A model generated the notes under the pieces. It was given only the letters and a program-made list of their open reading frames with translations, had not been told where the DNA came from and ran no database searches. Both the position numbers and the translations under genes were made by a program. Positions 4,296-53,800 of a DNA stretch of 64,000 bases are shown piece by piece; positions within the stretch are counted from its first letter, which is position 1, and each line of letters begins with the position of its first letter. This stretch comes from an uncultured Bacteroidota bacterium (lineage in GTDB: Bacteria > Bacteroidota > Bacteroidia > Chitinophagales > Chitinophagaceae): positions 1 to 64,000 of the forward strand of contig CAIVEH010000058.1 in the NCBI GenBank assembly GCA_903904855.1. Reading direction: 5' to 3'.

Positions 4296-4303
4296 TACTT
4301 TTG
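4296..4303 (+). promoter_or_regulatory. Bacteroidota -7 promoter element TACTTTTG upstream of kdnA
   Basis: TAnnTTTG match 18 nt before the ATG at 4322; argues against the TTG start at 4301. Confidence 0.45.
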
Positions 4304-4321
4304 CACTCTAAATTTTGCAAA

Positions 4322-5533
4322 ATGCCAGGAACTGAATTATTCGGCAGCGAAGAGCGCAAAGAAATCAATGACGTATTGGAAACAGGTATGCTGTTCCGGT
4401 ACAATAACGACCAGCAACGCAATGGTATCTGGAAGGCCCGCGAATTTGAGGCTGAAGTGAGAAAGATAACCGGCGCCAAGTATGCCCATGCAGTTTCGAA
4501 CGGCTCGGCTGCCATAGCTATTGCACTGGCTTCGGCAGGAATAGGTGCGGGAGATGAGGTGATCTGTCCGCCGTTTACGTTTATAGCCAGTATTGAGGCT
4601 GTTTTATGGATTGGCGCTATACCGGTTTTTGCTGAGATTGATGAGACTTTGTGCCTGAGCGCTGAGGGAATCAGAAATGCCATCACCCCTAAAACCAAGG
4701 GCGTATGCCTTGTGCATATGTGCGGCACCATGGCCGATATGGATGGCATTATGGCTGTGGTAAGGGAACATAACCTGATACTGGTAGAAGATGCAGGGCA
4801 GGCTTTCGGGGCTTCTTATAAGGGTACTTCGGTAGGGCTGTTTGGCAAGACAGGTAGTTTCTCTTTCGACTTTTTCAAGATAGCTACTGCGGGCGAAGGC
4901 GGTATCTTTATAACCAATGACGAGGCGACCTATAAAATTGCAGACGCCTACTCCGATCACGGTCATAACCATGTGGGTAATAACAGGGGTATGGAGCAGC
5001 ATCCTGTGCTGGGTTTCAACTATCGTATCAGCGAACTTCATGCTGCTGTGGGACTGGCCCAGACACGCAAAGTGCCGCATATACGCGAGGTGAACAATAA
5101 GCATAAAAAAGCCCTGACCGAAATACTCTCGCAAACTGAAGGAATAACTTTCGCTCACCTATCTGATCCGGATGGTGATTCGGCAACTTTCCTTAACTTT
5201 TTCCTGCCAGATACTGAGACTGCAAAACGCACAGTGGATGAGATGAACAAAGCAGGAATAGGCGGGTTCAACTACTGGTTCCTGAATATGTACCACTTCA
5301 TCAATCAGTGGGACCACCTGAAAACCATGCAGACCGCTTCTAAACTACCCGCACAGGTATTTGGTATGTCGCAGGATTATACCACACTTGAATTGCCAAA
5401 GTCGCAGGAAGTGATAGGCAGGCTGATATCGTTTGGTATCCGCTGTACCTGGACAGATGAAGATGTTGTGGCGCTGGCGAATAATATTGCAACTTGTGCA
5501 AAGAAAGCAATGCAGGTTGCTGTAATGGCTTAA
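4322..5533 (+). CDS. kdnA: 8-amino-3,8-dideoxy-D-manno-octulosonate (Kdo8N) aminotransferase, DegT/DnrJ/EryC1 family
   Basis: MPGTELFGSEERKEINDVLETGMLFRYN, PPFTFIASIEA, FAEIDETLCLSAEGI, DHGHNHVGNNRGMEQHPVLGFNYRISE closely resemble the Shewanella KdnA sequence as remembered; adjacent to kdnB. Confidence 0.85.
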   Translation: MPGTELFGSEERKEINDVLETGMLFRYNNDQQRNGIWKAREFEAEVRKITGAKYAHAVSNGSAAIAIALASAGIGAGDEVICPPFTFIASIEAVLWIGAIPVFAEIDETLCLSAEGIRNAITPKTKGVCLVHMCGTMADMDGIMAVVREHNLILVEDAGQAFGASYKGTSVGLFGKTGSFSFDFFKIATAGEGGIFITNDEATYKIADAYSDHGHNHVGNNRGMEQHPVLGFNYRISELHAAVGLAQTRKVPHIREVNNKHKKALTEILSQTEGITFAHLSDPDGDSATFLNFFLPDTETAKRTVDEMNKAGIGGFNYWFLNMYHFINQWDHLKTMQTASKLPAQVFGMSQDYTTLELPKSQEVIGRLISFGIRCTWTDEDVVALANNIATCAKKAMQVAVMA

Positions 5534-5846: not shown

Positions 5847-5910
5847 TAAATAGAATAATTTTTTGGTAAATGAAATTGCCATTTATAGTTTAATTTTTTA
5901 TTCAGGATAC

Positions 5911-6990
5911 ATGCATAAGAATTTCAAGAACATAGATAAGGTTGTTTTCGGCAGGGGCAGCTTCTCGGAGATGGAGGGCATACTGGCTGAGAAACGCAAT
6001 GACAATGACAAGTTCTTTCTTTTTGTAGTTGATAAATATTTTGAAGGAAAGGAACTTGCGAAACGCATACCCGCTGCAACCAATGATGTGGTGCGGTTTA
6101 TAGACGTTGATCCGCATGAGCCGACTACCGATCAGATTGATAGTCTGCGGGATGAAATTTTAGCTGGTCATGGCTTGCCTGCTGGAGTAATTGGCATAGG
6201 CGGTGGCAGCATTATGGATATTGCCAAGGCAGTATCGCTGATGTTTACCAATGAGGGCTCATCTACCCTATACCAAGGATTGAACCTGATCAAAAAACCG
6301 GGTATCTATCACCTGGGGGTACCTACCATTTCAGGTACAGGGGCTGAAGTATCTATGACAGCAGTACTGACCGGGCCAGTAAAAAAACTGGGCCTAAAAT
6401 GCGACTGGACTGTTTTCAACCAGGTAATCTTAGATCCTGAGTTAATCGCTTCTGTACCTGTTGACAAATGGCTGTATACGGGTATGGATACTTACATTCA
6501 CTGTATAGAATCGGAAAACGGCATTAAGAACAACGCCTATAGCCATGCCTATGCTGAACAAGCATTGAAACTTTGCCGGGAGATTTACCTGGGCGATAAT
6601 GCAGGACAGACAGCAGAGAATGATGATAAACTGATGGTGGCCTCTATGATGGGCGGGCTGAGCCTTACCTATTCGGAAGTAGGTGTTTGTCATGCAATGT
6701 CGTACGGGTTGTCAAAGATATTCGGAGAGAAACATTGCTATGCCAACTGTCTGGTATTTCAGCACCTGGATGAATTTTATGGCGAAGGTGTTACAGAATT
6801 GAAGCAGATGCTGGTAAAGCACAATATTACTTTGCCACAGGGCCTGAGCAAAAACTGGAGCGATGCCGAAATAACTGCGATGGCTGAAGTAGCCTACAAC
6901 CTGCCGTTTATGTGGCATCATGCAATTGGTGATGATTGGAAGGAAAAAGTGAATATTGATTTCATAAAGGATTTGTATAAAAGACTTTAA
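5911..6990 (+). CDS. kdnB: Kdo 8-oxidase KdnB, iron-containing alcohol dehydrogenase family
   Basis: VVFGRGSF, IGIGGGSIMDIAKAVSLMFTNEGSS.LYQGLNLIKKPGIYHLGVPTISGTGAE, TGMDTYIHCIES; close to remembered Shewanella KdnB. Start chosen at MHKNFKN. Confidence 0.88.
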   Translation: MHKNFKNIDKVVFGRGSFSEMEGILAEKRNDNDKFFLFVVDKYFEGKELAKRIPAATNDVVRFIDVDPHEPTTDQIDSLRDEILAGHGLPAGVIGIGGGSIMDIAKAVSLMFTNEGSSTLYQGLNLIKKPGIYHLGVPTISGTGAEVSMTAVLTGPVKKLGLKCDWTVFNQVILDPELIASVPVDKWLYTGMDTYIHCIESENGIKNNAYSHAYAEQALKLCREIYLGDNAGQTAENDDKLMVASMMGGLSLTYSEVGVCHAMSYGLSKIFGEKHCYANCLVFQHLDEFYGEGVTELKQMLVKHNITLPQGLSKNWSDAEITAMAEVAYNLPFMWHHAIGDDWKEKVNIDFIKDLYKRL

Positions 6991-7051: not shown

Positions 7052-7888
7052 ATGAGTGCAAAAAAAGTAATGGTTGGCGATATAACCTGCGGTGCAGATG
7101 AATTGTTTCTCATCTCCGGCCCATGTGTTATAGAAGATGAAATGATAATGATGAAAACGGCTGAAAAGCTGAAGGAAGTGAGCGCAAAGCTCAACATTCC
7201 GATCATCTACAAATCATCCTTCCTGAAAGACAACCGCAGCAGCCTGAAGTATTATGATGGCCCCGGACTTGTGGAGGGTATGAAAATACTGGCCAAAATC
7301 AAAGAGCAATTCGGGTTTACCTTGCTTACCGACATCCATTATCCCGATCATGCTGCTCCTGTAGCTGAGGTATGCGATGTGCTGCAGATACCTGCTTACC
7401 TCTGTATGCAATCTGGATTGATGGTTGCTGCCGCCAAAACAGGCAAGGTTGTCAACATAAAGCATGGCCAGTTTCTGGCACCAGATAATATGAAGCACCC
7501 TGTTGCTAAATGCATTGAGTCGGGCAATGATCAGATCATTCTTACTGAGCGGGGCTACACTATGGGCTATAACGACCTGGTGGTGGATCCACGCAGCTTT
7601 TATCATATGGCACAGATAGGTTACCCTGTTGTCTTCGATATTACCCATGCAATCCGAAAATACGGTATACCCAGCGCTGATGCTAAAGGCGGTGCAAGGG
7701 AATTTTTACCAGTATTGAGCCGGGCAGGTGTGGCATCGGGTGTAGATGGTATTTTCATTGAAACCCACCCTGAACCTGAGAAGGCCCTTTGCGATGCAGC
7801 AAGCCAGTTGAGTGTGTATGCGCTGGAAGAATTTTTGAAACCTTTGCTGGAGTTACATGCTATAGAGGTTAAGTATAGAGGTAAATAA
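7052..7888 (+). CDS. kdsA: 3-deoxy-8-phosphooctulonate synthase (Kdo-8-P synthase)
   Basis: LFLISGPCVIEDE, IYKSSFLKDNRSS, GFTLLTDIHYPDHA, VNIKHGQFLAPDNM, FDITHAIRKYG motifs. Confidence 0.96.
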   Translation: MSAKKVMVGDITCGADELFLISGPCVIEDEMIMMKTAEKLKEVSAKLNIPIIYKSSFLKDNRSSLKYYDGPGLVEGMKILAKIKEQFGFTLLTDIHYPDHAAPVAEVCDVLQIPAYLCMQSGLMVAAAKTGKVVNIKHGQFLAPDNMKHPVAKCIESGNDQIILTERGYTMGYNDLVVDPRSFYHMAQIGYPVVFDITHAIRKYGIPSADAKGGAREFLPVLSRAGVASGVDGIFIETHPEPEKALCDAASQLSVYALEEFLKPLLELHAIEVKYRGK

Positions 7889-7933: not shown

Positions 7934-8947
7934 ATGGAATTATATCTTGATTCGGCAAACCTGAAAGAAATTGAAGAAGGCTTCAAATTAGGTTTTCTTG
8001 ATGGTTTGACCACCACACCTACATTTATGGTGCGCGAAGGCATTATGGATGTGGACAGCACAATTGTGAAACTGTCGAAAATGGTGCCGGTGCTGCAGAT
8101 TGAAGCGCTGGGCAATACGGCAGAGGATGTGGTAAAAGAAGCCCACCGCCAGCTGGACCTTGGTCTTGATCCTAAAAAGACGGTGTTTAAAATACCGGTT
8201 TCTCTTGAAGGACTTCGTGCATGTAATATGCTGCGCAAGCAAGACCTTATGGTGAATGTGCACCTGGTATATACGCTACAGCAGGCCTATATGGCTATGC
8301 ATGCCGGGGCCAGCTATGTATGCCCACTGGTGGGCCGCCTGCAGGACCAGGGGCACGATGCTCTGGCATTGGTACAGCAGTGCGTTGAGGCTGTACATCA
8401 TTATGGTTATGATTCAAAAATCATGTTCAGCTCGGTACGTACTACAGAGCATGTGCGCAATGCAATCAATATAGGCGTGCATACCATTACCGTGCCGCTG
8501 AAAATACTGAAAGGACTCACTGAAAATAACTTTACAACCATAGGCACCGAACAGTTCCTGAGCGATACCAGGCTCATGACCGTGAAAGTGAAGGAAGCAA
8601 TCAACGGACTGAATCCATTGGTAAGTGAAAACTCCAGCCTAAAGGATGCCATTGTAAAAATGACCGAATTTGGTTTTGGTTGTATTACCGTTACCAACGA
8701 TGATGGCGACATTAAAGGTGTATTTACCGATGGCGACCTGAGACGTTTATTGCAGAAAGATGGTGAGCATATACTGGATAAGAAAATAGGCAGCCTTGAG
8801 TTTAAGTCTCCTATCAGTATAGATGCCAATGCGCTGCTTAATGATGCCAATGCAATTTTCAAGAAGATGAATGTAGATACCATACTGGTAACTGATAATG
8901 GCAAGCCTGCAGGTATGCTGGATATTCAGGACCTTAAAAAATACTAG
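7934..8947 (+). CDS. Transaldolase/fructose-6-phosphate-aldolase-like domain fused to a C-terminal KdsD-like CBS pair
   Basis: N-terminal MELYLDSANLKEIEEGF...LTTTPTFM...TVFKIPVSLEGLRA (Schiff-base Lys in K-P-V context); C-terminal GVFTDGDLRRLL...GMLDIQDLKKY (CBS pair). Confidence 0.88.
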   Translation: MELYLDSANLKEIEEGFKLGFLDGLTTTPTFMVREGIMDVDSTIVKLSKMVPVLQIEALGNTAEDVVKEAHRQLDLGLDPKKTVFKIPVSLEGLRACNMLRKQDLMVNVHLVYTLQQAYMAMHAGASYVCPLVGRLQDQGHDALALVQQCVEAVHHYGYDSKIMFSSVRTTEHVRNAINIGVHTITVPLKILKGLTENNFTTIGTEQFLSDTRLMTVKVKEAINGLNPLVSENSSLKDAIVKMTEFGFGCITVTNDDGDIKGVFTDGDLRRLLQKDGEHILDKKIGSLEFKSPISIDANALLNDANAIFKKMNVDTILVTDNGKPAGMLDIQDLKKY

Positions 8948-8971: not shown

Positions 8972-9682
8972 ATGAATATTACCAATCCGGAACAGATAAA
9001 GAGTTTTTTCAAGGGGAGTTTCCTGGCCAGTCCGGAAACTCTTCTTGCTAAATTACATCACATAAAAGCATTTGTCTTCGACTGGGATGGGGTATTTAAT
9101 GATGGTTTTAAAGATGGTGGTGGATCCAGCCCATTTAATGAAATTGACTCAATGGGCATAAATATGATGCGCTTTAATCATTTTCTGCGAAAGGGAGAAA
9201 ACCCTGTAATGGCCATTATTTCAGGTGAAAAAAACTCTGCTGCACTGGCATTATCGGCAAGGGAGCATTTCCATTCTGTTTATTCGGGAATAAAAAACAA
9301 AAAAGACGCACTGCTGCATTTTTGCACAGCTCATAACATCAAGCCTGAAGAAACCGTTTTCTTCTTTGATGATGTGCTGGATCTTTCGTTAGCGCCCATT
9401 TGCGGTATGCGCATAATGGTGGGCAGGGATTCCAACCCTTTATTCAATAACCTGGTTCAGGTGAATGAAATGGCCGACTATATTACCGCAAATGATGGTG
9501 GCCACAATGCCCTGCGCGAAGCCGCAGAATTAATTATCGGTATAACCGGCAGGTATAACAATACCATTATGCAGCGTGTGGCCTGGTCCGACAACTACCA
9601 GCATTATATTACCGAGCGTAATTCTATTACTACAAAATACTTTACCCATTCCGGAACTGCAATAACTGAACAAATAATCTGA
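8972..9682 (+). CDS. KdsC-like HAD-family phosphatase (putative Kdo-8-P phosphatase)
   Basis: FDWDGVFNDG, MAIISGEKNS, GIKNKKDALLHF, VFFFDDVLDLSLAPICG; position between kdsA and kdsB. Confidence 0.75.
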   Translation: MNITNPEQIKSFFKGSFLASPETLLAKLHHIKAFVFDWDGVFNDGFKDGGGSSPFNEIDSMGINMMRFNHFLRKGENPVMAIISGEKNSAALALSAREHFHSVYSGIKNKKDALLHFCTAHNIKPEETVFFFDDVLDLSLAPICGMRIMVGRDSNPLFNNLVQVNEMADYITANDGGHNALREAAELIIGITGRYNNTIMQRVAWSDNYQHYITERNSITTKYFTHSGTAITEQII

Positions 9683-10425
9683 TGATAGCTGGTATTATTC
9701 CTGCGAGGTACGCCTCTACCCGTTTTCCCGGTAAATCGCTCCTGGATATCAGGGGTAAATCAATGATTCAAAGGGTTTATGAAGAAGCATCAAAAAGCAA
9801 ATCGCTTGACACGCTTGTTGTGGCTACTGATGATGAACGGATTCTGAAACATGTACACTCATTCGGGGGAAAGGCAGTAATGACCGGCCTCAACCACCCA
9901 AGCGGCACTGACCGTTGCCTGGAAGCATTGCTGCAACTGGAAGGCGATTACCAATATGTAATTAATATTCAGGGCGACGAGCCATTTATTAATCCAGCGC
10001 AGATAGATGAACTGGCAGCCATTCTGAAAGATGGCACTGTGGAACTGGCTACCCAGATGATACCGGTTAGCACGCACGAAGAGCTGTTTGATATGGGCGA
10101 GGTAAAAATAGTGCTCAATGATAAAATGGAGGCGCTTTATTTCAGCCGTATGGTGATACCTTATATTAAAGGAGTAGCGCAAACCGAATGGCATCAGCAC
10201 TTCACCTACTACCGCCATGTGGGTATGTATGCCTACCGGAAGGATATACTTGAAAAAATAACCAGGCTCCCAGTGTCATCACTGGAGCAGGCCGAATCGC
10301 TGGAGCAACTGCGCTGGGTGGAGCATGGCTATAAAATAAAATGCGCCATAACCAGGTTCGAAAGCCATTGCATAGATACTCCCGGCGATGTGGAAAAAGT
10401 AATGCGGAGAATGGGATTGGAATAA
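9682..10425 (+). CDS. kdsB: CMP-Kdo synthetase (3-deoxy-manno-octulosonate cytidylyltransferase)
   Basis: IIPARYASTRFPGKSLLDIRGKSMIQRVYEEA, VVATDDERI, INIQGDEPFI, FYSR-like FSRMVIPY; ATGA overlap with the upstream gene. Confidence 0.95.
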   Translation: MIAGIIPARYASTRFPGKSLLDIRGKSMIQRVYEEASKSKSLDTLVVATDDERILKHVHSFGGKAVMTGLNHPSGTDRCLEALLQLEGDYQYVINIQGDEPFINPAQIDELAAILKDGTVELATQMIPVSTHEELFDMGEVKIVLNDKMEALYFSRMVIPYIKGVAQTEWHQHFTYYRHVGMYAYRKDILEKITRLPVSSLEQAESLEQLRWVEHGYKIKCAITRFESHCIDTPGDVEKVMRRMGLE

Positions 10426-13265: not shown

Positions 13266-13697
13266 ATGCCTCATTCATACAATAAAATTTGGGTTCATGC
13301 AATTTTTGCTACAAAGGAGCGACAACTGCTGATTAAATCTGAAAGTGAACAAAAAATTTACGATCACTTGAAGGATCAATTGATTGAAATCGGATGCCCA
13401 GTAAGGATAATAAATGGTATGCCAGAACACATTCATTTGTTATTTTTAATGAATCCTCAAAAAGCAATTGCAGACGTACTAAAACAAATAAAAGGCAACA
13501 CATCTCATTGGATAAATGAGAATAACATTGTTGTTGAAAAATTTGCCTGGCAGACTGGTTATGCAGCATATTCGGTTAGTGAATCCCGGCTCCAAATTGT
13601 TTACAAATATATTTTACAACAAAAAACTCATCATGCTAAACAAACTTTTGCTGAAGAATATGACGAGTTTATTAAGTTTCATGGATTAAAAATATAA
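13266..13697 (+). mobile_element. REP-associated tyrosine transposase (RAYT / Y1_Tnp, IS200-like)
   Basis: IWVHAIFATKER, HUH motif MPEHIHLLFLM, YKYILQQKTHHAKQTFAEEYDEFIKFHG; flanked by REPs on both sides. Confidence 0.88.
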
Positions 13698-20916: not shown

Positions 20917-20951
20917 CACCGCTTTACCATTTGGCTTTAATCAGTTGCTAT

Positions 20952-22277
20952 ATGAAAAACACCGGAAGTAATAGAGTTGAGGCTGATGGTTCAAAGGGTA
21001 ATTCATTACCGCGCCGCTTGCTGATGCTCTTTCTTTACGATTTTTTCCTTTCCCTTTATGTAATTGCAATAAAGGTTTATGGCTTATTCAACGGGAAGGC
21101 AGGCAAATGGATTAGCGGAAGAAAAGACTGGGAACAAAACTATACCCAGCTACTTAAAACTGTGGAAAAGAGAATCTGGTTTCATTGTTCATCGGTAGGT
21201 GAATATGAGCAGGCAAAACCAGTTATTGAAGCTTTAAAACAGCAATATCCTGATCATAAAATAGCTGTAACTTTTTTCTCCCCTTCAGGCTTCGAGGCCT
21301 GCAAGAAGACACCGCTTGTTGACTACATACTTTATCTTCCTCCCGACAATAATGCTAATGCCCAAACTTTCATTAATCTGATTCATCCGGCGTTAGCTGT
21401 CTTTGTAAAATACGAATTCTGGTATCACTATCTCGCCGAACTGAAAAAGCAAGGAATACCCACAATAATTGTTTCTGGGGCTTTCAGGCCTGAGCAGCCT
21501 TTCTTTAAGTGGTATGGTGGCCTGTTCCGGGATATGCTCACCTGCTTTGATTTCTTTTTCCTGCAGGATGAACAATCTTCTCTTGATCTGAATAAAATCG
21601 GCATCGATACAAACATTACCATCTCCGGCGATACCCGCTACGACAGGGTTTCAGCTATTGCTAAAAGCATCACACCTATATCAGCTATCGAACAGTTCAA
21701 AGGCTCAAACAAAGTACTAATTGCCGGCAGCAGCTGGCCTGCAGATGAAGAGGTAATTCTTGCCTGCCTGCCCATCCTCCCTGCCAACTGGAAATTAATC
21801 ATTGCACCTCATGAAATCGACGAACCGCACATACGCAAAATACAAAAGCTCTTCGGGAGCCAATCCATCCTTTTTTCCGAGCTGGATGACGAATACACCG
21901 GCTTCGATAAGCGGATACTGATCATTAACAATATTGGTATGCTCTCCCGCCTTTATGCCTGTGGCGATATAGCTTTTGTAGGCGGCGGATTTTATAAGGG
22001 AGGCATCCACAACATATTGGAGCCAGCAGTCTTTGGAGTACCTGTTATTTTCGGTCCGGTTTATCAAAAATTTGTTGAGGCAAAAGAAATGGCTGCATTG
22101 GATATTGTCTTTCCTGTAAAAGACAAAGGCGAATGCGCCATCAGACTTAAAAAGCTCATCAATGATGATGCTTACCATCAATCTATTCATAATTCTTTAC
22201 TGGCTTTCATGAAACAACATACCGGTGCAACCAATACCATAATGGATGTGATAAAAGCAAAGAAATGGCTGGAATAA
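20952..22277 (+). CDS. waaA: 3-deoxy-D-manno-octulosonic acid transferase
   Basis: IWFHCSSVGEYEQAKPVIEALK, VTFFSPSGFEA, VFVKYEFWYHYLAELKKQGIPTIIVSGAFR, FVGGGFYKGGIHNILEPAVFGVPVIFGP. Confidence 0.95.
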   Translation: MKNTGSNRVEADGSKGNSLPRRLLMLFLYDFFLSLYVIAIKVYGLFNGKAGKWISGRKDWEQNYTQLLKTVEKRIWFHCSSVGEYEQAKPVIEALKQQYPDHKIAVTFFSPSGFEACKKTPLVDYILYLPPDNNANAQTFINLIHPALAVFVKYEFWYHYLAELKKQGIPTIIVSGAFRPEQPFFKWYGGLFRDMLTCFDFFFLQDEQSSLDLNKIGIDTNITISGDTRYDRVSAIAKSITPISAIEQFKGSNKVLIAGSSWPADEEVILACLPILPANWKLIIAPHEIDEPHIRKIQKLFGSQSILFSELDDEYTGFDKRILIINNIGMLSRLYACGDIAFVGGGFYKGGIHNILEPAVFGVPVIFGPVYQKFVEAKEMAALDIVFPVKDKGECAIRLKKLINDDAYHQSIHNSLLAFMKQHTGATNTIMDVIKAKKWLE

Positions 22278-38891: not shown

Positions 38892-41800
38892 TTATTGCTC
38901 AACAACCATATGGAATACTTTGCTCTCAGTAGCTGATTGCACATTTACCATATACATGCCATTGGCAAGACCGCTGTTCATCTGTACTTTCTCATCAATA
39001 ACACCATTATGTGCTATCACCTTGCTGGTGTAAATAACCTGGCCAAGCACATTGGTTACTTCTATTGATATTTCCTGATCATCTATTGAAGAAAGCGTAC
39101 CCTTGATTGTAAATGTTCCGTTATTAGGATTTGGAACCAGGCGTATATCGCCGGTCATTGTGCTAACTGGTTTCACACTTACGTTGCTTGAATGAACGGT
39201 AAATGAACTTCCACCTATCAGGTAACCACATGCATTACTGTCAGATACCTGGCAAGCTACTACATCCTGATCGTTAAGCGTGGTAGAGTACAGAACCGAA
39301 GTACTAGCACCAGTAAGTTCTACACCATTAATAGACCACCTGTAAACCGGAGCAGCGCCTGGATTAGTAACAGTAGCTGTAAGTGTGTCATTGTAAAGCA
39401 CTGTACCCACATTAGCACCTGAATTCAGGCTGATTGTAACCACTGGAGCCAGACTTGTCTGTGTATTGAAAGTAAGATTGTTACTCAATACTGTAGATGC
39501 AGTTACGCACTGATAGCTGCTGGTCATAGTACAGAACAGTATATCGCCATCTGTTGGTATGTAGGTAAATGTATTACCGCTGCCTACTGGTACACCACCC
39601 AGTTTCCATGAATAAGAAGGAGTAGTACCACCATTAACCGGTGTAGCAGTTATATCAACTGTTGTACCCTGACATACTGTTGTTGAAGGTGAAGCTGCAA
39701 TCGTTACTGAAGGAGTAACATCAGGTCTTACAGTCATCGTTACAGAACCATTGGCAGTAGCTGGCAGCGGACAAGGTTCGTTACTTGTCATCATTACACT
39801 GATAACATTGCCGTTTGATGGAACGAATGTATAAGAACTGCCTGTTGCTCCTGTTAAGATACCATTCACAGACCATGAGAATGCTGGAAATGCACCCCCA
39901 TTAACTGTAAGTGCAGAGAAGGTAACAGTTGTACCTGTACATACTGTATCACCCACACCTGTAGCAACTGTTACAGAAGGAATAACAGAAGGCATGGTAG
40001 TTACTACAGCTGTACCTGTCATGTTTGAAGAACATGTAGTAGTCGAATTAACAGCCATTACACTGTAAGTACCCGCAGTATGTAGTCCGAAGCTGATAGC
40101 AGCGCCTGTACCGGCAACAGATCCCGGAATCAGGGAAGTACCATTGTATAACTGATAATTAACACCTGCATCAGATCCACTCAATCCTACAGGCAAACCA
40201 GCTGTACTTGCGCAATAAGCGCCACCACCTGTTACTGCATATACTGAAGGTAATGAGCTTATAGAAACAACCACACTACCTGCCATTGCATTTGTACAAC
40301 CGGTAGCTGTATTTGATGCACTTACTGTATAAGTACCTGCAGCAGTTACCAGGCCAAAATTAATAGAGCTTCCTGATCCTGAAACCGGAGCCAACACATT
40401 TACAGTACCCAGTTTCAACTGATAAGTAATACCAGATGCTGTACCGCTTAAGCCAACATTAACACCTGTTCCACCTGTGCAGTAATTACCACCACCTGTT
40501 ACAGTAAAGGCAGCAGGTAACGCATTAACTGATACAGTAACTGAACCTGTCATTGGAGCGCTGCAAGATGTAACCGGATTAGTAGCTAATATAGTATAGG
40601 TGCCTGGTGTAGTCTGAGGACCAAAATCAAGTGAACTGCTATACGAATGTGTAGTTCCTACAGCTACACCATCAAGGTATAACTGATAGAAACAAGGAGA
40701 ATCCATGGCGCTGATGCCAACATGAGAACCAGCAGAACCTGCGCAGAAACTTCCACCACCTACAACAGTATAAGCTGTTGGCAACGGATTAACTGCTACC
40801 GATGCACTGCTGAGCATATTGTTGGTACAGCCGGTTGATGAATTTGTAGCTACAACTGTAAAGGTACCGCCAGTTGTCTGAGGACCAAAATTCAGTGAAT
40901 AGCCTGTACCTGCCATTGTAGCTACAGATGAAGAACCTCTCCACAACTGGTAGTTAACACCGGCATCAGATCCGCTCTGGAACACTGGTACACCTGCACC
41001 GCCTGCGCAGAAACCGCCGCCACCTGAAACTGTGTAAAGCGCTGGTAAAGAATTAATAACTACAGATGGAGTATCGTTCATAGTACTGTAGCATGTTGTT
41101 GCAATGCTGGTAGCAACTACTTTATAAGTACCTGCTGATGTCTGCAGACCATAATTGATAGTGAAACCAGTACCTGATACCGAACCACCCACTGGTACTG
41201 CACCGAGATACAACTGATATTGAGTACCAACATCAGATCCGTTCAGAGAAATGTTAACACCTGAACCACCCAGGCAATAACCTGTTGAGCTTGCAATTAC
41301 ATTGTAAGATGTAGGTAAAGGACTGATTCCTATCGATGGGCTGCCTACCATGTTAATGCTGCAACCTGTAGATGCATCTGTTGCTGTTACGAAATAAGTA
41401 CCAACAACTGATTGATATCCGAAATCAAGGCCTGTACCGGTACCTGCTGTTGGAGCGCCCAGCGGCAGAATACCACGATACAATTGGTAATTGATTCCCA
41501 TTGTAGAATTGCTGAGTCCGATATGCTGACCAAGGCCGCCCGGGCAATAATTGCCACCACCGGTAACTGTATCAACAATTGGCAACGGATTAACAATAAT
41601 GCTAACACTGCCGGTCATATTGCTTTGGCAGAGTGTAGTAGTATTGGTACCGGTAACAGTATATGTTCCTGCTGCCGACTGTAAGCCAAAGTTAATTGCA
41701 CCTGCACCACCTGCCTGAGGTAAGCCGGTTGCAATACCGTCTTTATATAACTGGTAGCTGATTCCTGATGCAGAACCTGAAAGGCCAACATTCAGGCCAG

Positions 41801-44800
41801 TACCGCCTGCGCAATAAGAACCGCCTCCTGTAACTACATAAGTAGAAGCTGGTAATGGATTAACAGATACCGATGTGCTGCCAGCCATTGTAGAAGTACA
41901 TGAAGTAACACTATTGGTTGCTACTACTGTATATGTTCCTGGTGCTGTCTGGTTGCCGAAATTCAACAATCCTGTTACACCGCCAAATGGAGCGCCAACT
42001 GGTGAACCTCCGAGTTTCAGCTGGTAGTTGATACCTGCATCTGAAGAAGAAAGCGTAACCGGAACTCCTGCACCGCCTGCACAGAATGAACCGCCACCAC
42101 CTACATTATAAACCAATGGAAGTGCGTTAACAGATATGGACTGGCTTCCGCTCATTGAATTGATACAGCCGGTAACTGAGTTGGTACCGATAACAGTATA
42201 TGCACCGCCACCTGTAAATGTGCCAAAGCTCAATGCGCTGCCAGTACCTGCCAATGCCGGACCAGTCATTACACTACCCAGATATAACTGATAGCTGATA
42301 GTAAGATCCGAATTGCTCAATCCTACAGGAAGACCTGCGCCACCTGCGCAATAGCTGCCACCACCGGTAACATTATAAGCAGTTGGTAAAGGATTCAGTG
42401 ATACGGTTACACTGCTTGTCATGTTATTAGAGCAACCGGTAAGCATACTTGTTGCAATAACTGTATAAGTACCAAGTGCAGTTTTATTACCAAAATCAAG
42501 TGGAGAACCTGTACCAGACATAGGTAAACCGGATGTTGAAGCACCAACATAAAGTTGATAATTAACCCCTGAAACTGAACCGCTGAGTTGCACATCAGAT
42601 CCTGTTCCACCTGTGCAATAGCCACCACCACCTGTTATTGTAAAGGCTGTTGGCAATGCATAGTTGGAAACTACAGCAGTTCCTGTCATATTGCTGCTGC
42701 ATGTTGTTGTTGGATTTACAGCCTTAACGGTATAAGTACCGATGCCGGTTTGTAATCCAAATGTTACAGGAACACCTGTTGTTCCTGCAACTGAAGAACC
42801 TACAGGCGCACCTGAAAGGTAAAGTTGATAATTAATACCAGTGCTGCCGGTATCTACTCCTATCACTCTGCCTGTTCCGCCTGGGCAATAAGCGCCACCA
42901 CCTGTTACAGTATGAATTGAAGGAAGTGGATTAATTGAGATCAGCACACTGCCCGTCATTGTTGATGTACAACCTGAAGAAGTCCTTGTTGCAACTACAG
43001 TATAGATACCAGTACCAGTCTGGAGGCCAAAGCTGATTGCGCTTCCTGTTCCGGTTACTGATGGCAGACCGGTAGAAATACCTGCTAAATAAAGCTGGTA
43101 ACTTACACCTGTATCTGAGCTGCTTAATCCAACAGAAGTACCTGAAGTACCTGTACAATAGCCACCACCACCTGTTACGGTATAAAGCGCTGGAGCCAAT
43201 AATTTATTGATAATTGCGCTGCCGGTCATTGTAGCAGTACATCCGGTAGCAGTACTTGTAGCACGGGCAATAAATGTATCGCTTAAGCCTACAGAAATTG
43301 TTCCGAAGCTGATAACACCACCTGTACCCGCAACTGCAGCACCTATTAAAGTACCATCATTAGGATCAAGTAACTGATAATTTACGCCTGTTACCGATCC
43401 GCTGAGGCCTACCGGTACACCGGCAAGTCCTGCACAATAGTTACCGCCGCCTGTAACTGTAAATACAGCAGGTGCAGTAGTAATAGATACGGTAGCAGCG
43501 CCTGTCATAGTATTGGTACAGCCGGTTACAATATTGGTACCTATAACGGTATAAGTACCTGTAGAAGCCTGAATACCCATATCAAGTGAAGAACCTGTTC
43601 CTGTTCCTAAAACAGCTGAACCGGTAGATACACCTAGATTATACAACTGGTAGGAAACGCCTGCCTGAGAATTGCTTATAGTAATATCTACACCAGTGCC
43701 GCCTGCGCAATAGCTGCCACCCGAAGAAACAGTATATGCTGTTGGCAGAGGATTGGTTGTTACAGTCACAAAGGCTGGTACCATTGGATTAGTACAAAGT
43801 GTGGCAATGTTTGTTGCAACAACATTATAGTTACCTGCTGTCAGTGGTCCGAAAACAAGCGGAGCACCTGTACCATTAACCGGTGTACCTATGGCTAATG
43901 ATGTAGTAGTATTATATAACTGATATCTAATACCAGCGTCTGAATTATTAAGTGTCAATGTAACTCCTGTTCCACCTAAGCAGTAAGTAGAAACTGTGGT
44001 TGGTGCGAGTGTATATTGGGTAGGCAAAAGAGCAACACTAACTGTAGCGCTACCAATCATATTGCTTACGCAATTGGTTGTAGTATTGGTAGCTGTAACT
44101 GTATACGTTCCTGCTGTATTTTGTAGCGGGAACGTAATAGTTGATGGAACTGTAGCAAGTCCGGCTATAGTAGACTGAAGTGTTGCTCCGTTGAATAACT
44201 TGTAGTTATAACCTGAATAGGTTGTATCTACAGCAATTGCAACTCCTGTACCTCCGATACCACATACTACGCCACCACTACCTGTGGTAATATGAGTAAC
44301 TGGTGGCAATGGATTAATTGTAACCGTAACACTGGTTCCGGTTACACTGGTACAACCTGTAACAGTATTGGTAGCTCTTACAGTATATGTTCCTGCTGCA
44401 AGCACTGAACCTAAAGGTAACAGAGCGCCGGTACCTGTAAAGGCAGTACCAAAATTTGAACCTCCTAGCAGTATCTGATAGCTGGTTAATGTCTGGGATC
44501 CGCTCAAAGTCAGTGGAACACCAGTACCACCTGCGCAATAAGCGCTTGATGTACCTGTAAAGCCAAGGGTAAATACTGTAGGTGCCACACCGGCTGTAAC
44601 CGCTGCTGAGCCAAGCATGGTATTACTACATCCTGTAGTAGCATTCAATGCAGTAATTGTATAAGTAGCATTGGTAGTTAAAAGTCCGTAGCTGAGGGCC
44701 GAACCGGTAGTACCTGGTAAAGTAACCGAAGTTCCTCCTACCAGTGTATAATTCACACCAGTCTGAGAGTTACTTAAACCTACAGGAACGCCTGTACTAC

Positions 44801-47800
44801 CAGGACAGTTAATACCACCACCGGTAACTGTGTATGCTGTTGGCAATGGATTAACCAATATAACAGAAACGCCTGTCATATTATTAACACAACCTGTAGT
44901 GTTATTGGTTGCAACTACAGTATAATTACCACCGGCAGTCATCGTGCCGAAGGAAATGGCGCCGCCTGTTCCTGTTACCAGCGCTCCTGGCAGTAAAGTT
45001 CCATTCAGGTATAATTGATAACTGTATGAAGTTCCACCAGAAACTGGCTGTGAACTTGAGAGACCAACTGCAAAACCAGTGCCACCTGCACAATAAGCTC
45101 CGCCACCTGTCATGTTAAATGCTGTTGGAAGGACTGATAAAGCAACAGTTGCTGATCCGCCCATGGCTTGTGTGCAACCTGTAGTTGTATTGGTAGCTAC
45201 TGCTGTATAAGTAGTGGCTGTAGTCTGTATTCCAAATGATATTGGTGAACCTGTACCTGCTACCGGACTTCCTACAGCAGTACCACCATTCATTAATTGA
45301 TAACTGATTCCTACATCTGAACCACTTAAACCAACAGCAACACCGGTTGAACCTGCGCAATAAGCGCCGCCACCGGTAAGTGTATAAATATTAGGCAATG
45401 CATTAACTGTACCTGAAGTTGTTGCAATACAACCTGTAGGTAATGTATAAGTAAGGCTAACAGTTCCTGCTGCTACACCACTCATAATTCCTGTAAAGCC
45501 GCCAATAGTAGCTATTGCAGTATTGCTGCTGTTCCATGAACCGCCTGCAGAGGCATCTGAAAGTGTTGTTGATGAACCTACACAGACATTCAATGTACCT
45601 GTAATTGCTGCAGGTAATGGATTTACGGTAACAGGATATACAACATTACATCCGATAGGAGCTAAAGTATAAGATATTACAGTTGTACCTGGGGTAATTC
45701 CGGATACAACACCTGTTGTTGATATACTTCCGACAGCAGGCAGACTGCTTGTCCATGTACCACCTGAAGTACCATCTGCAAGCGCAGTAGTAAGGCCAAG
45801 ACAAACTGTTGGATTTCCTGTAATTACGGCAGGAGTTGGATAAACTGTAACTGTCTGTGTTACAAAACAACCTGCTGGTAATGTATAGGTAATAGTTACT
45901 GTACCTGCTGATACGCCTGTTACCACGCCTGTTGCAGAAACTACTGTGGCTATAGCAGTATTAGAACTTGTATATGAACCACCGGTTGTAGCATCGTTTA
46001 AAGTTGTACTAAGACCGGTACATACTGTAAATACACCGGTTATTGCTACTGGTTGTGGATTTACAGTTTCTACCATAGTTGTAAAGCAACTACCTGGAGC
46101 TGGTAAAGTGTAAGTAATTGTAGGAGTACCTACAGCCACACCTGCAACAACTCCCAGGCCGGAAATAGTAGCCAGTGAAGTGTTGCTGCTGCTCCATGAG
46201 CCGCCGCTTACACCGTCAGTTAGTGTAGTGGTAAGGCCTACACATACAGTATTTGAACCTGATATAGCTGCTGGTGATGGATAAACCGTTGTACCGGCAG
46301 TTATCAGACATGTTGTAGGCAATGTATAAGTAATCGTTGCTGTACCTGCTGTTACACCGCCCACAATTCCTGTTCCTGTACCTACAGTTGCAACTGCTGT
46401 GTTACTGCTGGTCCATGTTCCACCTGCGGTAGCATCAAACAATGTAGTTGTAGCTCCTGCACATACGGTAGCGATACCGGTAATTGCTGGTGGAATTGGG
46501 TTAACTGTTATCGGATAAGTTGTCAGACAGCCTGTTGGCAGTGTATAAGTAATAACAGGATTACCTGCTGCAACACCCGTTACAACACCGGTTAAAGCAA
46601 CAACGCTTCCAAGTGTGGCATTGCTGCTGCTCCATGTACCGCCTGTTGTAGCATCGGTCAATGAGGTGGTTAATAATACACACACACTGGCTGTACCCGT
46701 AATGGCCGCTGGTAATGGATTAACCGTGAATGGGAAAATTACAAAACAACCTGCTGGTAAAGTATAAGTGATATTACAACTACCGAAAGCAACACCGGTT
46801 ACTGTACCGGTTCCGGCACCCACTGTAGCAACAGCAGTATTGCTGCTTGTCCAGGTACCACCGGTAACCGTATTTGCCAATGTTGTGGTAAGACCTACGC
46901 ACACATTATTTGTTCCTGTTATAGCTGCTGCTACCGGATTAACGGTAACAGTATATGTTGTAAAGCAACCTGCCGGTAATGTATAAGTAATACTTACTGT
47001 ACCTGCTGCAACACCTGTTACAACACCGCCGGCAGATATTGTGGCAATAGCTGTATTACTGCTGGTCCATGTACCGCCGGTAGTTGCATCAGCCAGTGTA
47101 GTTGTTAAACCAACACATACTGTGGCAGTACCTGTAACAGCTGCAGGAGTAGGATTTACCGTAAATGATTCAGTAACATTACATCCTGCTGGAAGTGTAT
47201 ATGTCAGATTAGTAATACCGGCCAATACTCCGGTAACAATACCGGTACCGCCACCTATTGTAGCTACTGTAGGTGTTGAACTTGTCCATACACCACCTGC
47301 TGTAAGATCAATTGCAGTTATTGTAAGGCCTACGCAAACTGAAGCAGGACCTGTAATAGCAACCGGAGTTGGATTAACTGTTATATTAAAGGTAGCAAAG
47401 CAACCTGTAGTCAATGTATAAGTAATTGTTGGTGTACCTGCCGCGATACCATTTACGATACCTGATGATACGCCAACTGTAGCAATCAATGCATTGCTGC
47501 TAGACCAGTTACCACCACCCGTAGCATCGGCCAGTGTAATTGCTGAACCGGCACATACTGTTGTCAGTCCTGATATTGCAGCCGGGTTAGGATTAACCGT
47601 TACAGTTGCACTGATCGAACAGCCTGTTGGTAATGTATAAATAATATTTGCAGTTCCAAATGCAACACCGGTTACAACGCCTGTGCTTGCACCTACTGTT
47701 GCAACTCCCGGGGTAGAGGTAGTCCATGTACCACCTGTTGAAGTGTTAGCAAGTGTAGTAGTTGTGCCTGGGCATAAGAACATTGTTCCTGTAATAGATG

Positions 47801-50800
47801 CTGGCAATGGATTGATTACCACTGTCTGGCTACCCGACATTGTGCTTTGACATAAAGTAGTAGTGTTGGTACCTATTACGGTATAAACTCCTGCAGTTGT
47901 CTGAGAACCGAAAGTAATTGCTGCACCAGACCCAACAACCGGGCTTCCGGTAGAAACTCCACTCACATAAAGCTGGTAGCTTACACCAGTCTGAGAACTG
48001 GATAATCCTACAGCAACACCAGAACCACCTGCGCAATATGGGCCACCGCCTGTAACCGTAAATGTATTGGTTGGCAATGGATTTGTAAATATTGTTGCAG
48101 AACCTGACATGTTACTTCCGCAACCGGTTGTTGCGTTGGTTGCAGTAACAGTATAAGTTCCTACAGTAGTAATAGCACCAAAGTCAAGACCTGCGAATGT
48201 ACCGGCAAGTGGAGTACCCACTGTAGTAGCGCCAAGCCATAATTGATAATTAATACCACCGGTAGAATTGGACAGGAATACATGTGATCCTGTACCACCA
48301 ACGCAATAACCACCGCCGCCGGTTACAGTATAAACTGTTGGCAGAGGATAAACTGTAAATGTGGATGTATTATTGGATAACGGTACACTTGTACAGGTTA
48401 ATGCATTTGAGATACCTGTAATAGTTACTGTGGTAGAGCCTGTAGCTATCAGTGAACCTAAAGGAATATTAAATGTACCAGTTGTAGCGCCCATTGTCAG
48501 GGTAGCTGTAGCGCCTGTTACGGCATTGGCTCCCGACAGGTTGTAGGTAACCGTGAAGGTACCTGCACCAAGCGATGAAGATGCAATAGTAACTACGCTG
48601 CCCACGCCTACGCATAGTGACGTTGCTACTGTTGAAGTGAATGAACTGATATTTGGTACTGGGTTAACTGTAATTGTATAAGAAGCAGTACAACCTGCGC
48701 CTAATGTATATGTCATATTTACTACGCCAGCTGCAACACCGGTAACAATACCGGTACCGGGTGCGATAGTAGCTGTTGCGGTATTACCGCTGCTCCATAC
48801 ACCACCTGAGGTAGCATCATTTAAAGTAATATTTGAACCTGCGCAAACTACAGTTGGACCTGTAATAGCCGACGGTGTAGGATTAACCACAACTGGTGTG
48901 ATTACATAACAACCGGTAGGCATAGTGTAGGAGATGTTTGGTGTACCAACTGCTATACCAGATACTATACCAGTACCAGCTCCCACAGTCGCCATTGCCG
49001 GATTGGTTGATGACCAGGTACCGCCTGCGAGTGTGTTACTTAATACTGTTGTTGCACCTACGCATACACTGGCTGTACCAGTTGATGCCGGAGGATTCGG
49101 ATTGACAACTACCGCCTGTGTAACATAACAACTGCCTAATGTATAAGATATAATTGGTGTACCTGCACCAACCCCTGTAACAACAGTAGATGCCGAAGGA
49201 CCGGCCACTACCGATGCTTCAGATGTATTGCTGCTGCTCCATGTACCGGCAAGAGTGGCACTTGCTAAAGTTGTAGTGAATCCTGTACATACTGTAGCAA
49301 CGCCTGTAATAGCTGAAGGAGTCTGGTTAACTGCAACACCATAAGTAGCATAGCACCCTGTTGCAAGTGTATAAGACATAGTTGGTGAACCTACTGCAAC
49401 TCCGGTAACTACACCTGTACCTGCTCCAATCGTTGCCTTGGTTGCATCACTGCTGCTCCAGGTACCTCCGGAAGTAATATCTGCCAGGCCAATTGTCTGG
49501 CCGGTACATACTGATGTCGCACCTGTGATAGCTGCCGGGTTCGGATTAACTGTAATCGGAGTAGTTACATAACATCCTGTTGCTGGTATCGTATACGTAA
49601 TAAGCGGAATGCCTGATGCAATACCGGTCAAGACTGTTGATGCGCTTGGGCCAATTACAACCGCAGCCAGAGAAGCATTACTGCTGGTCCAGTTACCTGT
49701 AGATGTTGCATCTGTAAGTGTAATATTAAAACCAACACAAACATTTGTTGGTCCTGCAATTGCTACCGGAGTCTGGTTAACAACAATACTCTTTGTTGCC
49801 AGACAGCCTGTAGGTAATGTATAAGTAATAGTAGGACTACCTGGAGTGATACCACCAACAATTCCGGTGGCTGCACCAACAGTTCCCTGTGCAGCATTGC
49901 TTGAAGACCAGGTACCGCCTGTTGTTATTGTTGAAAAAGTTGTAGTGTAACCGGTACAAACACTTGCTGCACCTGAAATAGCTGCAGGATTTGGATTAAC
50001 AGTTACAGGCGTTGTAGTAAAACATCCCGTAGGTAAGGTATAGGTTATTATTGGTGTACCTGCAGAAATACCTAAGATAACATTTGAAGTGCCTGCACCA
50101 CCTGTGGTTGTAGCTTCAGAACTGTTGCTGCTGGTCCATGTTCCTGCAGGAGTAGTTGCATCAGCCAGAGTAGTCGTCAGGCCGATACACACATTGGTTG
50201 TTCCGGTTATAGCTGCCGGATTAGGGTTAACTATAATTGTAGTAGAATTGGAACATCCGCTTGGTACTGTATATATTATTGTAGCGGTACCATTGCTTAC
50301 ACCTGTTACTGTACCTGTACCAGCGCCCACTGTTGCGAATGCAGGATTACTGCTGCTCCATATTCCACCGGTTGTAGCATCTGTTAATGTTGTAGTAGCC
50401 CCTACACATATTGATGAACCTGCGGGAGTCGGTGCTGGTGGAGTCTGATTTACTGTAACTGGCTGGGTTGTATAACAACCTGTTGCGTTTATCTGATAAG
50501 TTATTGTTGGTACTCCTGCTGCAAGTCCACTTACAACACCACCGGCTGTAACTGTTGCCATAGTACCATTACTGCTGCTCCATGTTGCAGGTCCGGCAGT
50601 TGCGTCTGTCAGTGTTGTAGTAAATCCGGTACATACATTAAAGGTACCGGAGATAGCGGCCGGTAATGGATTTACCACAACTGTTGCCTGGTTCAAACAT
50701 CCTGTAGGTAAAGTATATATAATATTAGGTGAGCCTGCCAATACTCCTGTTACAATCCCTGTAGTCGCGCCAACAGTTGCCTTGGTAACATCACTGCTGC

Positions 50801-53800
50801 TCCAGGTTCCACCTGATGTGGCCTCGGTAAGCACAGTTGTTGATCCAACGCATACTGCCAGTGTACCACCCGGTACTGCCGGATTAGGATTAACTGTAAC
50901 TGGCGTTACTGTATAACAGCCGGTTGCTACAATTGCATAAGTAATATTTGGTACGCCTGCTGCAACACCGGTTACTATATTACCTGCAACAGTTGCAAGT
51001 GAAGTATTGCTGCTGGTCCATGTTGCAGGGCCGGGGGTAGCATCCGATAGTGCTGTTGTAAGTCCTACGCACACATTCTGTGTACCTGTTATTGCAACTG
51101 GTGTCTGGTTGACAACTACTGTTGCTACAGCATAACAACCTGTGCCAAGTATATATGATATTGTTGCTGATCCTGTTGCTACTCCGGTTACAACACCGGT
51201 AGCTGCATTTACTGTTGCCTTGGTAGGGTCACTTGTACTCCATGTACCACCACCGGTAGCATTACTCAAGGTTGTGGTAGCTCCGGTACAAACAGCCAGA
51301 GTACCTGTTATTGCACCCGGATTGGCATTATCAACAAATGAAGTTGTTGCAGAACATCCTGTTGCAGTAACTGTATAAGATATATTAGCAGTACCTGCAC
51401 TTACGCCCGTAACAAGTCCACCAGCTGAAACTGTAACGATAGCGGTATTGCTCGAACTCCATGTTGCAGGACCGGCACTACCGTCGCTTAATAAACTGGT
51501 ACCGGTACCACATACATTTGTAGTTCCTGTAATTGGTAAAGGATTTGCATTTACAGCTACCACCTGGGTAACAGCACAACCGGTAGGCAGCGTATAAGTA
51601 ATGGTAGGACTGCCAGGTGCAACACCTGCTACAATACCTGTACCGGCACCTACTGTGGCCCATGACGGGTTACTGCTGGTCCATACGCCGCCACCGCCAT
51701 CTGTAAGAACTATGGTCGAACCCACACACACCTGGGAAGCGCCCGATATCGCAGAAGGCAAGGGATTTACAGTTACTGTTGCTGCTGAAAAACAACCGGA
51801 ACCTAATGTATAGGTAATATTGGTTGTTCCTGCTGTAAGTCCGTTTACTAAGCCACCCAATGCAGTAATTGTTGCTACTGCAGGGGCGCTGCTAGTCCAG
51901 GAACCGCCAGCTGGTGATGATGCAAGAGTTGTATTTCCACCTACGCAAATCCCGGTTGTGCCGGATATTGCACCTGGTGTTGTATTCACAACTATCGACT
52001 CTGTAGCGAAACATCCTGTTGCTGTATTTGTAAAAGTAATTGTTGGTGTACCTGCAGAAAGACCTGTTATAAGACCTGTGCCCGAAACTATCGATGCCTG
52101 GCTGGTATTGCTGCTGGTCCATGTCCCAGGAGTTGATGCATCGGTCGCGCTTATTGCCGATCCAACGCAGACTGTTGTTGGGCCGCCAATTGCAGCCGGA
52201 TTATTATTAATGGTCATTGGCCATAAGGCGTAACAACCCGAAGGTAATACATATGATATGGTTACAGCTCCTGCTCCTACGCCGGTTACTACTCCGGTTC
52301 CCGACACGACTGTAGCCTTTAAAGGGTCGCTCGTGCTCCAGGTACCGCCGCCTGTTGTATTGGTTAATGTTGTAGTAGCGCTCACACATAATGTGCTTGC
52401 ACCTGTTGTAGCCACTGGTGTCTGGTTAACTGTATATGACTGAATTGCATAACATCCTGTTGCAGTAATAGTATAAGAAATGTTCGGAACACCTATCGAT
52501 ACTCCGCTAACCGTGGTTGAGGTACTTGGACCGGCAACTACAGTAGCAAGTCCTGTATTACTGCTGCTCCAGGTTCCACCTGCTGTTGCATCGGTTGCTG
52601 TATTCGTCATTCCGGTACAAACTGTAAACGGAGAACCCGATATTGCAGCTGGGTTAGCATAAACGTTGAATGCTTGAGTAGCATAACAACCGTTACTGGC
52701 AGTGTAGGTAATATAAGGTGCTCCCGCAGCAATTCCGGTAACTGTACCGGCTCCGGCACCTGAGGCTATTACTGAACCAAGTAGCGCATTACTGCTCGAC
52801 CAGGTACCGCCTGCGGTCAGGTCCGTAAGTACAGTACTGTAAGTCATACACACACTCGATGCTCCGGCGATGGCATTCGGAGTAGTATTAACAGTGACAG
52901 GCTGATAAACCGCACATCCGCTTGGTACTGTATAAGTAATTGTTGGGATACCTGCCAAAATACCATTTACATTGGCTGTACCTGATCCTGGTGCACCTGT
53001 TGCAGAAACTGTTGCCAGTGATCCGTCACTTGAACTGAATATACCACCTGTCGTACCGCTTGCTACTGGTATGGAAAGCCCTGTACATACAGTAAATGCT
53101 GGAACTATTGCCGGACCGGTTATTGGCAGAGGTGTGCTAAATACAGTCATTGGAAATGTACTGAAACATCCTGTACTAGCTAATGTATAGGAAATGGTAA
53201 CAGTTCCGTTACTTACTCCGGTAACAACACCTGTACCGTTTACAGTAGCAACAAAAGCATTGCTGGTGGACCATGTAGTACCGCCACTTGAAGTAAGGCC
53301 TGTTGGGTATGGTGCTGATGCACCAGTACAAACAGTAGGGCTACCAGTTATGCTGGTTGGTGCTGCTGCTACAGTTACCTGGGCATATGCAAAACAAGTA
53401 TTGGGAAGTGTATAAGTAATATTAGAAGTTCCTGCACTTACACCGGTTACAGTTGTAATACCGGAAGTACCACCCGTAAAGCTAAAAAATATATTCGCTG
53501 GGCTATATGTTCCACCTGAAGTACCATCAGTTACTGTAATTGTTGCACCGTTAGCGCAAACTGTACTGGGTACAGTTATTGGTAATGGATACGCCATATT
53601 TGTGAAGGTGATGTTTGTCGTAGTGCTGCCAAATCCGTCAGTAACTGTTACCTGGATCGTTTCAGACCCTATATAGCCTGTATTTGGTGTATAAGTTACT
53701 CCTACCGGAGTGGTATTGGTTGAGACACCTACCAGTGCTGTAGGGCCATAGGGCAAATTTGCAATTGAGCCATGAGTTGGCGGAACAGTTAATGTCCAGG

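Follow-up and report, generated by a model that had tools for sequence, protein, structure and literature searches.

A Bacteroidota Kdo8N operon gene that joins a transaldolase-type barrel and a KdsD-type CBS pair: a probable replacement for the arabinose 5-phosphate-supplying enzyme KdsD

The Kdo8N operon and the fusion gene

The window, by which we mean the whole stretch of 64,000 nucleotides that was analysed, contains an operon with the gene order kdnA-kdnB-kdsA-fusion-kdsC'-kdsB, in which the fusion is a gene encoding a transaldolase/FSA domain followed by a CBS pair (Table 1). The first-pass annotation had described a Kdo operon with the fusion located between kdsA and a kdsC-like gene. 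The gene positions were confirmed by NCBIfam profile matches, and the operon assignment was borne out as well, although it is more exactly a Kdo8N operon, kdnA and kdnB having gone unrecognised in that annotation. The open reading frames of kdnB and kdsA open with TTG codons at positions 5863 and 7016, respectively, and the ATG codons listed in Table 1 are the likely starts. The product of kdsA passed both equivalog cut-offs, with 343 bits for NF003543 (cut-off 242) and 327.7 bits for TIGR01362 (cut-off 314). Gram-negative outer membranes contain Kdo as a core sugar, and the presence of a waaA gene in the window, overlooked in the first-pass annotation, suggests that the source genome makes use of Kdo.

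Table 1. Positions in the window of the operon genes, of waaA, and of the domains and selected codons of the fusion
Feature	Position	Strand	Basis or remark
kdnA, 8-amino-3,8-dideoxy-manno-octulosonate transaminase (DegT family)	4301..5533	+	PDB 5k8b, E 2.6e-128
kdnB, 3-deoxy-manno-octulosonate 8-oxidase (Fe-ADH family)	5911..6990	+	PDB 5k8c, E 1e-121
kdsA, KDO-8-phosphate synthase of a separate clade (alt-KdsA)	7052..7888	+	NCBIfam; clade-specific residues
Transaldolase/FSA-CBS fusion, proposed KdsD replacement	7934..8947	+	337 aa, ATG start
TIM-barrel transaldolase/FSA domain, residues 3-201	7940..8536	+	Pfam TAL_FSA, AF2 fold, residue table
Codon of T28 (changed active-site position)	8015-8017	+	
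Codon of Lys86	8189-8191	+	
Codon of H110 (changed active-site position)	8261-8263	+	
Codon of C130 (changed active-site position)	8321-8323	+	
Codon of L132 (changed active-site position)	8327-8329	+	
KdsD-type CBS pair, residues 229-336, GVFTDGDLRR motif	8618..8941	+	Pfam CBS, PDB matches
kdsC', kdsC-like HAD phosphatase, divergent	8972..9682	+	NF007019 (KdsC) 56 bits, cut-off of 208 missed
kdsB, CMP-Kdo (or CMP-Kdo8N) synthetase	9682..10425	+	NF003952 and TIGR00466 above cut-off
waaA/kdtA, Kdo transferase, outside the operon	20931..22277	+	Pfam PF04413, E 5.3e-44

In the Pfam scan of the fusion, a TAL_FSA domain (E 7.5e-33) was found instead of a SIS domain, and a CBS pair (E 4.8e-15) was located in the C-terminal third. 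The KdsD/KpsF models TIGR00393 and NF008141 covered the C-terminal part of the protein only, and the best PDB matches of the CBS half were the KdsD CBS structures 4o9k, 3k2v and 3fna. The nearest PDB sequences to the barrel were those of the TalC-type transaldolases 1vpx, 3r8r and 3s0c, and the score against the FSA/TalC model TIGR00875 was 159.9 bits, below the equivalog cut-off of 245.95. An AlphaFold2 model of the fusion (76 sequences, mean pLDDT 92.1, pTM 0.70) had the Thermoplasma acidophilum transaldolase 3s0c as its top fold match, with a TM-score of 0.92 by target length. The initial reading of the 337-aa open reading frame as a transaldolase joined to a KdsD-type CBS pair was thus confirmed by Pfam, NCBIfam and PDB matches. 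A tree of the TAL domains showed a long branch between the fusions and TalC, but the support for the root of the fusions was poor (0.17), and we therefore make no claim about their exact origin.

The neighbourhood of the fusion was compared among relatives by a scan of genome_contigs, which yielded 480 stretches encoding relatives of the fusion. In the best 80 of these 480 loci, kdsC' was found near the fusion in 63 cases, kdsB in 59, kdsA in 52, and both kdnA and kdnB in 44; the counts are minima, owing to truncated contigs. The order kdnA-kdnB-kdsA-fusion-kdsC'-kdsB was present in 34 of the best 80 loci, with eight more lacking only a recognised kdsC', and the operon linkage is thus conserved across relatives. 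Additionally, the pairwise divergence of the fusions, calculated from identities, was correlated with that of the KdsA proteins of the same loci (r 0.89, 61 loci). The closest relative, whose fusion is 97% identical, carries two short open reading frames between kdsA and the fusion (L036, 7330-8000) which are absent from the window and look like a ParD/ParE-type toxin-antitoxin pair.

Co-occurrence of the fusion with KdsD and KdsA

The textbook source of D-arabinose 5-phosphate (A5P) for Kdo is KdsD or GutQ. The cluster had been described at the outset as being without a SIS-domain KdsD, and a SIS-domain search not only confirmed this but also detected no SIS-type KdsD in the whole assembly, which is 97.1% complete. 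The only SIS matches were a bifunctional phosphoglucose/phosphomannose isomerase-like protein and two open reading frames of GlmS length, each containing two SIS domains. The closed chromosome of a relative (CP075895.1), which carries kdsA-fusion-kdsC'-kdsB, is likewise devoid of KdsD, its SIS proteins being only GlmS, a PgmBi-like isomerase and GmhA, the last of these under the cut-off. Despite its lack of KdsD, the source genome encodes KdsA twice, the second copy being canonical and lying apart from the operon (L228, contig C3, 2440-3225). Contamination was considered as the source of this contig and rejected, because its GC content and tetranucleotide profile match those of the window; the second KdsA is therefore probably genuine.

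The distribution of the genes was then compared across two samples, one of 247 genomes from the phylum and one of 388 from the class, many of which are drafts or MAGs. In the phylum sample, the fusion was found in four genomes, all without KdsD. Among the 68 phylum-sample genomes without KdsD, a true KdsA was detected in only five, namely the four fusion carriers and G023 (L184), a genome of another family that has a canonical KdsA with neither KdsD nor the fusion; at least one more source of A5P may therefore exist. The other 63 of these 68 genomes also lack a true KdsA, and whole families of Bacteroidota, such as f23, seem to be without a Kdo pathway of this kind.

In the class sample, the fusion was present in 74 of the 388 genomes (31 of the 194 genera), KdsD in 223 (201 of them above the curated cut-off) and KdsA in 284. 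Of the 284 genomes with KdsA, 65 had only the fusion, 211 only KdsD, four had both genes and four had neither, which corresponds to a Fisher p of 5.6e-54, uncorrected for phylogeny. When 18 KdsD matches read as weak (E 1e-40 to 1e-51) were removed, the counts became 65, 194, 4 and 21, respectively (p 2.7e-40, likewise uncorrected). Three of the four genomes with both genes belong to one genus, the fourth being G542, and the four with neither gene are 60-83% complete. The absence of KdsD from genomes that carry the fusion, which had been named as a point to check, is thus nearly perfect. Moreover, at least seven families (f1, f8, f10, f47, f53, f76 and f87) contain genomes of either state, so that the pattern does not reflect a single split between lineages.

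The exchange of the two genes can be followed most closely in family f10, where 11 genomes carry the fusion and the other 65 KdsD, so that all 76 genomes hold exactly one of the two (p 1.7e-13). KdsA proteins form two clades, one with identities of 65% or more to the KdsA of the window and one with identities of 49% or less. The alt-KdsA clade (76-79% identity to the window's protein in this family) accompanied the fusion in all 11 genomes that have it, and was found besides in five genomes with KdsD and no fusion (G495, G586, G643, G607 and G632). Two of the latter, G586 and the single-contig genome G495, carry the operon kdnA-kdnB-altKdsA-kdsC'-kdsB from which the fusion is missing, and in G495 KdsD is located elsewhere, adjoining a RecQ-like gene. 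The fact that the same KdsA clade lives with either enzyme points to one common product, and by this comparison the fusion and KdsD most likely supply the same compound, A5P. In a further member of the family, G189, a lone fusion lies outside any kds operon, with a heparinase-like gene on one side and a short radical-SAM gene on the other, and KdsD is absent; this one gene thus seems enough to dispense with KdsD.

An alternative is that the fusion makes another aldose phosphate, which alt-KdsA would use in place of A5P, so that the cassette would lead to a different Kdo-like sugar. Alt-KdsA does differ at or close to the acceptor region by substitutions specific to its clade, namely A72D (giving KDNRSS in place of KANRSS), R131M (equivalent to A. 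aeolicus R106), K150H and, in a later loop, Q214R and P216Y. The acceptor pocket seems to have been rebuilt, the acceptor could differ from A5P, and the divergence of the KdsC-like protein would fit such a difference. Nevertheless, the five genomes described above, two of them with the same operon, combine alt-KdsA with an ordinary KdsD, and two others (G379 and G347) hold a canonical KdsA alongside alt-KdsA and the fusion, with no KdsD. Since kdsB, kdnA and kdnB also match the enzymes of normal Kdo/Kdo8N synthesis, we regard a different sugar as unlikely.

Active site of the fusion and candidate routes to A5P

The active-site residues of 103 fusions were compared with those of 26 stand-alone transaldolase relatives. 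E57 (T. acidophilum E60), K86, N108, R135, S167 and R169 were invariant in the fusions, D6 was found in 102 of 103 with one gap, and the same residues occupy these positions in the 26 relatives. Together with the fold, they are the features that the fusion shares with TalC/MipB and FSA enzymes (3s0c; E. coli 1l6w). It differs from these enzymes at four positions, where T28, H110, C130 and L132 in 103/103 fusions correspond to N28, T110, S130 and F132 in 26/26 stand-alone relatives, as well as by about 120 extra residues comprising the CBS pair, by its Kdo operon setting and by its score under the equivalog cut-off. We take N28 and S130 to contact the donor ketose at its C1 hydroxyl, and T110 to hold the catalytic water jointly with E60. 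The loss of N28 and S130 and the gain of a histidine may point to an aldose-type imine or a new acid/base. According to the predicted secondary structure of the AlphaFold2 model, the residues listed lie in or just past the ends of the barrel strands, and three of the positions (K86, E60 and F132) are ones varied in the T. acidophilum transaldolase structures 3s1w and 4xz9.

In four divergent relatives of family f45 (L177-L180, in G288, G320, G348 and G424), Arg or Ser replaces K86 and the phosphate-binding Arg residues R135 and R169 are gone, and no KdsA was detected in their genomes. Within the sample examined, the catalytic residues are kept only alongside KdsA. The four transaldolase-CBS homologues are probably non-catalytic, and they are perhaps CBS-based sensors; the neighbours of L178 are genes for an M61 peptidase and a phosphodiesterase.

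These comparisons bear on the option, raised in the first-pass annotation, that the fusion regulates the Kdo enzymes or serves as their scaffold; A5P would then come from another, unrecognised gene. CBS pairs are regulatory, and G023, with its KdsA but neither KdsD nor fusion, leaves room for a further A5P source. The option is weakened, however, by catalytic and phosphate-binding residues that are invariant in the 103 fusions and lost in the relatives without KdsA, and by the lone fusion of G189, which goes with the absence of KdsD even outside a kds operon; we consider it very unlikely. That the fusion is simply the cell's ordinary transaldolase or FSA with an acquired CBS pair, placed in the operon by chance, is scarcely credible, for although its fold and sequence are nearest to TalC-type transaldolases, the source genome encodes a separate TAL/FSA homologue (C23:9199-9852), so that the family has another representative there, its score misses the FSA/TalC equivalog cut-off, four otherwise invariant active-site positions differ, and chance linkage would not explain the mutual exclusion with KdsD.

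We therefore return to the replacement of KdsD. It is highly probable that the transaldolase/FSA-CBS fusion has taken the place of KdsD in supplying A5P to KdsA, the catalytic domains of the two proteins being unrelated. The proposal made at first sight, that a SIS catalytic domain was exchanged for an aldolase fold while the CBS pair was kept, is supported by the architecture, by the exclusion of KdsD and by the operon linkage. The comparative case for A5P supply is strong, whereas Schiff-base catalysis on Lys86 is proposed more weakly. In the mechanism suggested, KdsA of the Kdo/Kdo8N pathway would receive its A5P from the remodelled barrel, and the KdsD-type CBS pair would act as a regulatory sensor, possibly for feedback by CMP-Kdo or CMP-Kdo8N, which is a guess from homology.

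If A5P is indeed the product, three routes may be envisaged. The one we tentatively place first is C2-epimerisation of R5P. R5P and A5P differ only in configuration at C2, and ordinary enamine chemistry would permit the epimerisation if a lysine imine formed at C1. Taken as a whole, a transaldolase-fold enzyme that epimerises R5P to A5P via a C1 lysine imine, either through deprotonation or through retro-aldol and aldol steps around a glycolaldehyde enamine, is possible but rather unlikely; the disappearance of N28 and S130 and the gain of H110 would fit it without proving it.

The second in rank, which is also possible, is aldol addition of glycolaldehyde to G3P, the chemistry put forward in the first-pass annotation and one of the three that fit. 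The preferred partners of E. coli FSA are reported to be glycolaldehyde and G3P, which give A5P (PMC6298115, PMC9947464). The aldol route is thus chemically established, but it would need a supply of glycolaldehyde. We know of no common metabolite that could serve as a sugar-phosphate donor releasing glycolaldehyde in the active site with the right stereochemistry. Additionally, the fact that the fusion alone appears to suffice in G189 would argue for a housekeeping substrate over a dedicated supply of glycolaldehyde.

The third and somewhat more doubtful route is isomerisation of Ru5P through an enediol, with participation of H110, E57 and K86. For Ru5P, a plain aldose-ketose isomerisation by way of a Schiff base was rejected by our own reasoning, since an imine on the isomerising carbonyl would give amino-sugar (Amadori-type) products; the Ru5P route would therefore need K86 in a role other than that of a C2 Schiff base.

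Relation to known systems and other features of the window

The fusion resembles KdsD/KpsF/GutQ in its position in the Kdo pathway, in its C-terminal CBS pair with the TDGDLRR motif and, as mutual exclusion and interchange suggest, in its supply role. It differs from them in that the SIS domain is missing and the catalytic domain is instead a (beta/alpha)8 transaldolase barrel, in which the Schiff-base lysine is conserved. Formation of A5P from glycolaldehyde and G3P by a member of the transaldolase family is also known from the engineered use of E. coli FsaA (PMC9947464, PMC6298115); that, however, is a laboratory pathway in which KdsD consumes A5P, whereas the fusion is natural, seems to provide A5P for Kdo synthesis and possibly does not act on glycolaldehyde. 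The Kdo8N genes kdnA and kdnB (5k8b and 5k8c) both head the fusion operon. In the open-access literature we found no prior description of such a fusion beside kdnA/kdnB, and no earlier report tying Kdo8N, KdsD or A5P isomerase to a transaldolase with a CBS pair.

It looks as if an unrelated enzyme has taken over an essential Kdo step in many Bacteroidota. If this is true, the organisms concerned (the 74 genomes and 31 genera of the class sample) use an unrelated enzyme for the A5P step, in a role that genome annotation and pathway models overlook. The fusion would also be a natural example of a catalytic fold exchanged with retention of the regulatory domain, and a natural A5P-forming enzyme of aldolase fold, useful to synthetic pathways that now depend on FSA. 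Should the C2-epimerase reading hold, it would represent a second natural route into Kdo, chemically different and bearing the grafted end-product sensor of KdsD.

Two further features of the window may be mentioned. An IS200-like Y1 transposase gene (Pfam PF01797) is located at positions 13266-13697, between aroA and aroC. On the reverse strand, positions 38892-54032 are occupied by an open reading frame of 5046 aa with repeated segments and a C-terminal tail that resembles a secretion sorting domain; it is predicted to encode a giant surface or secreted protein.
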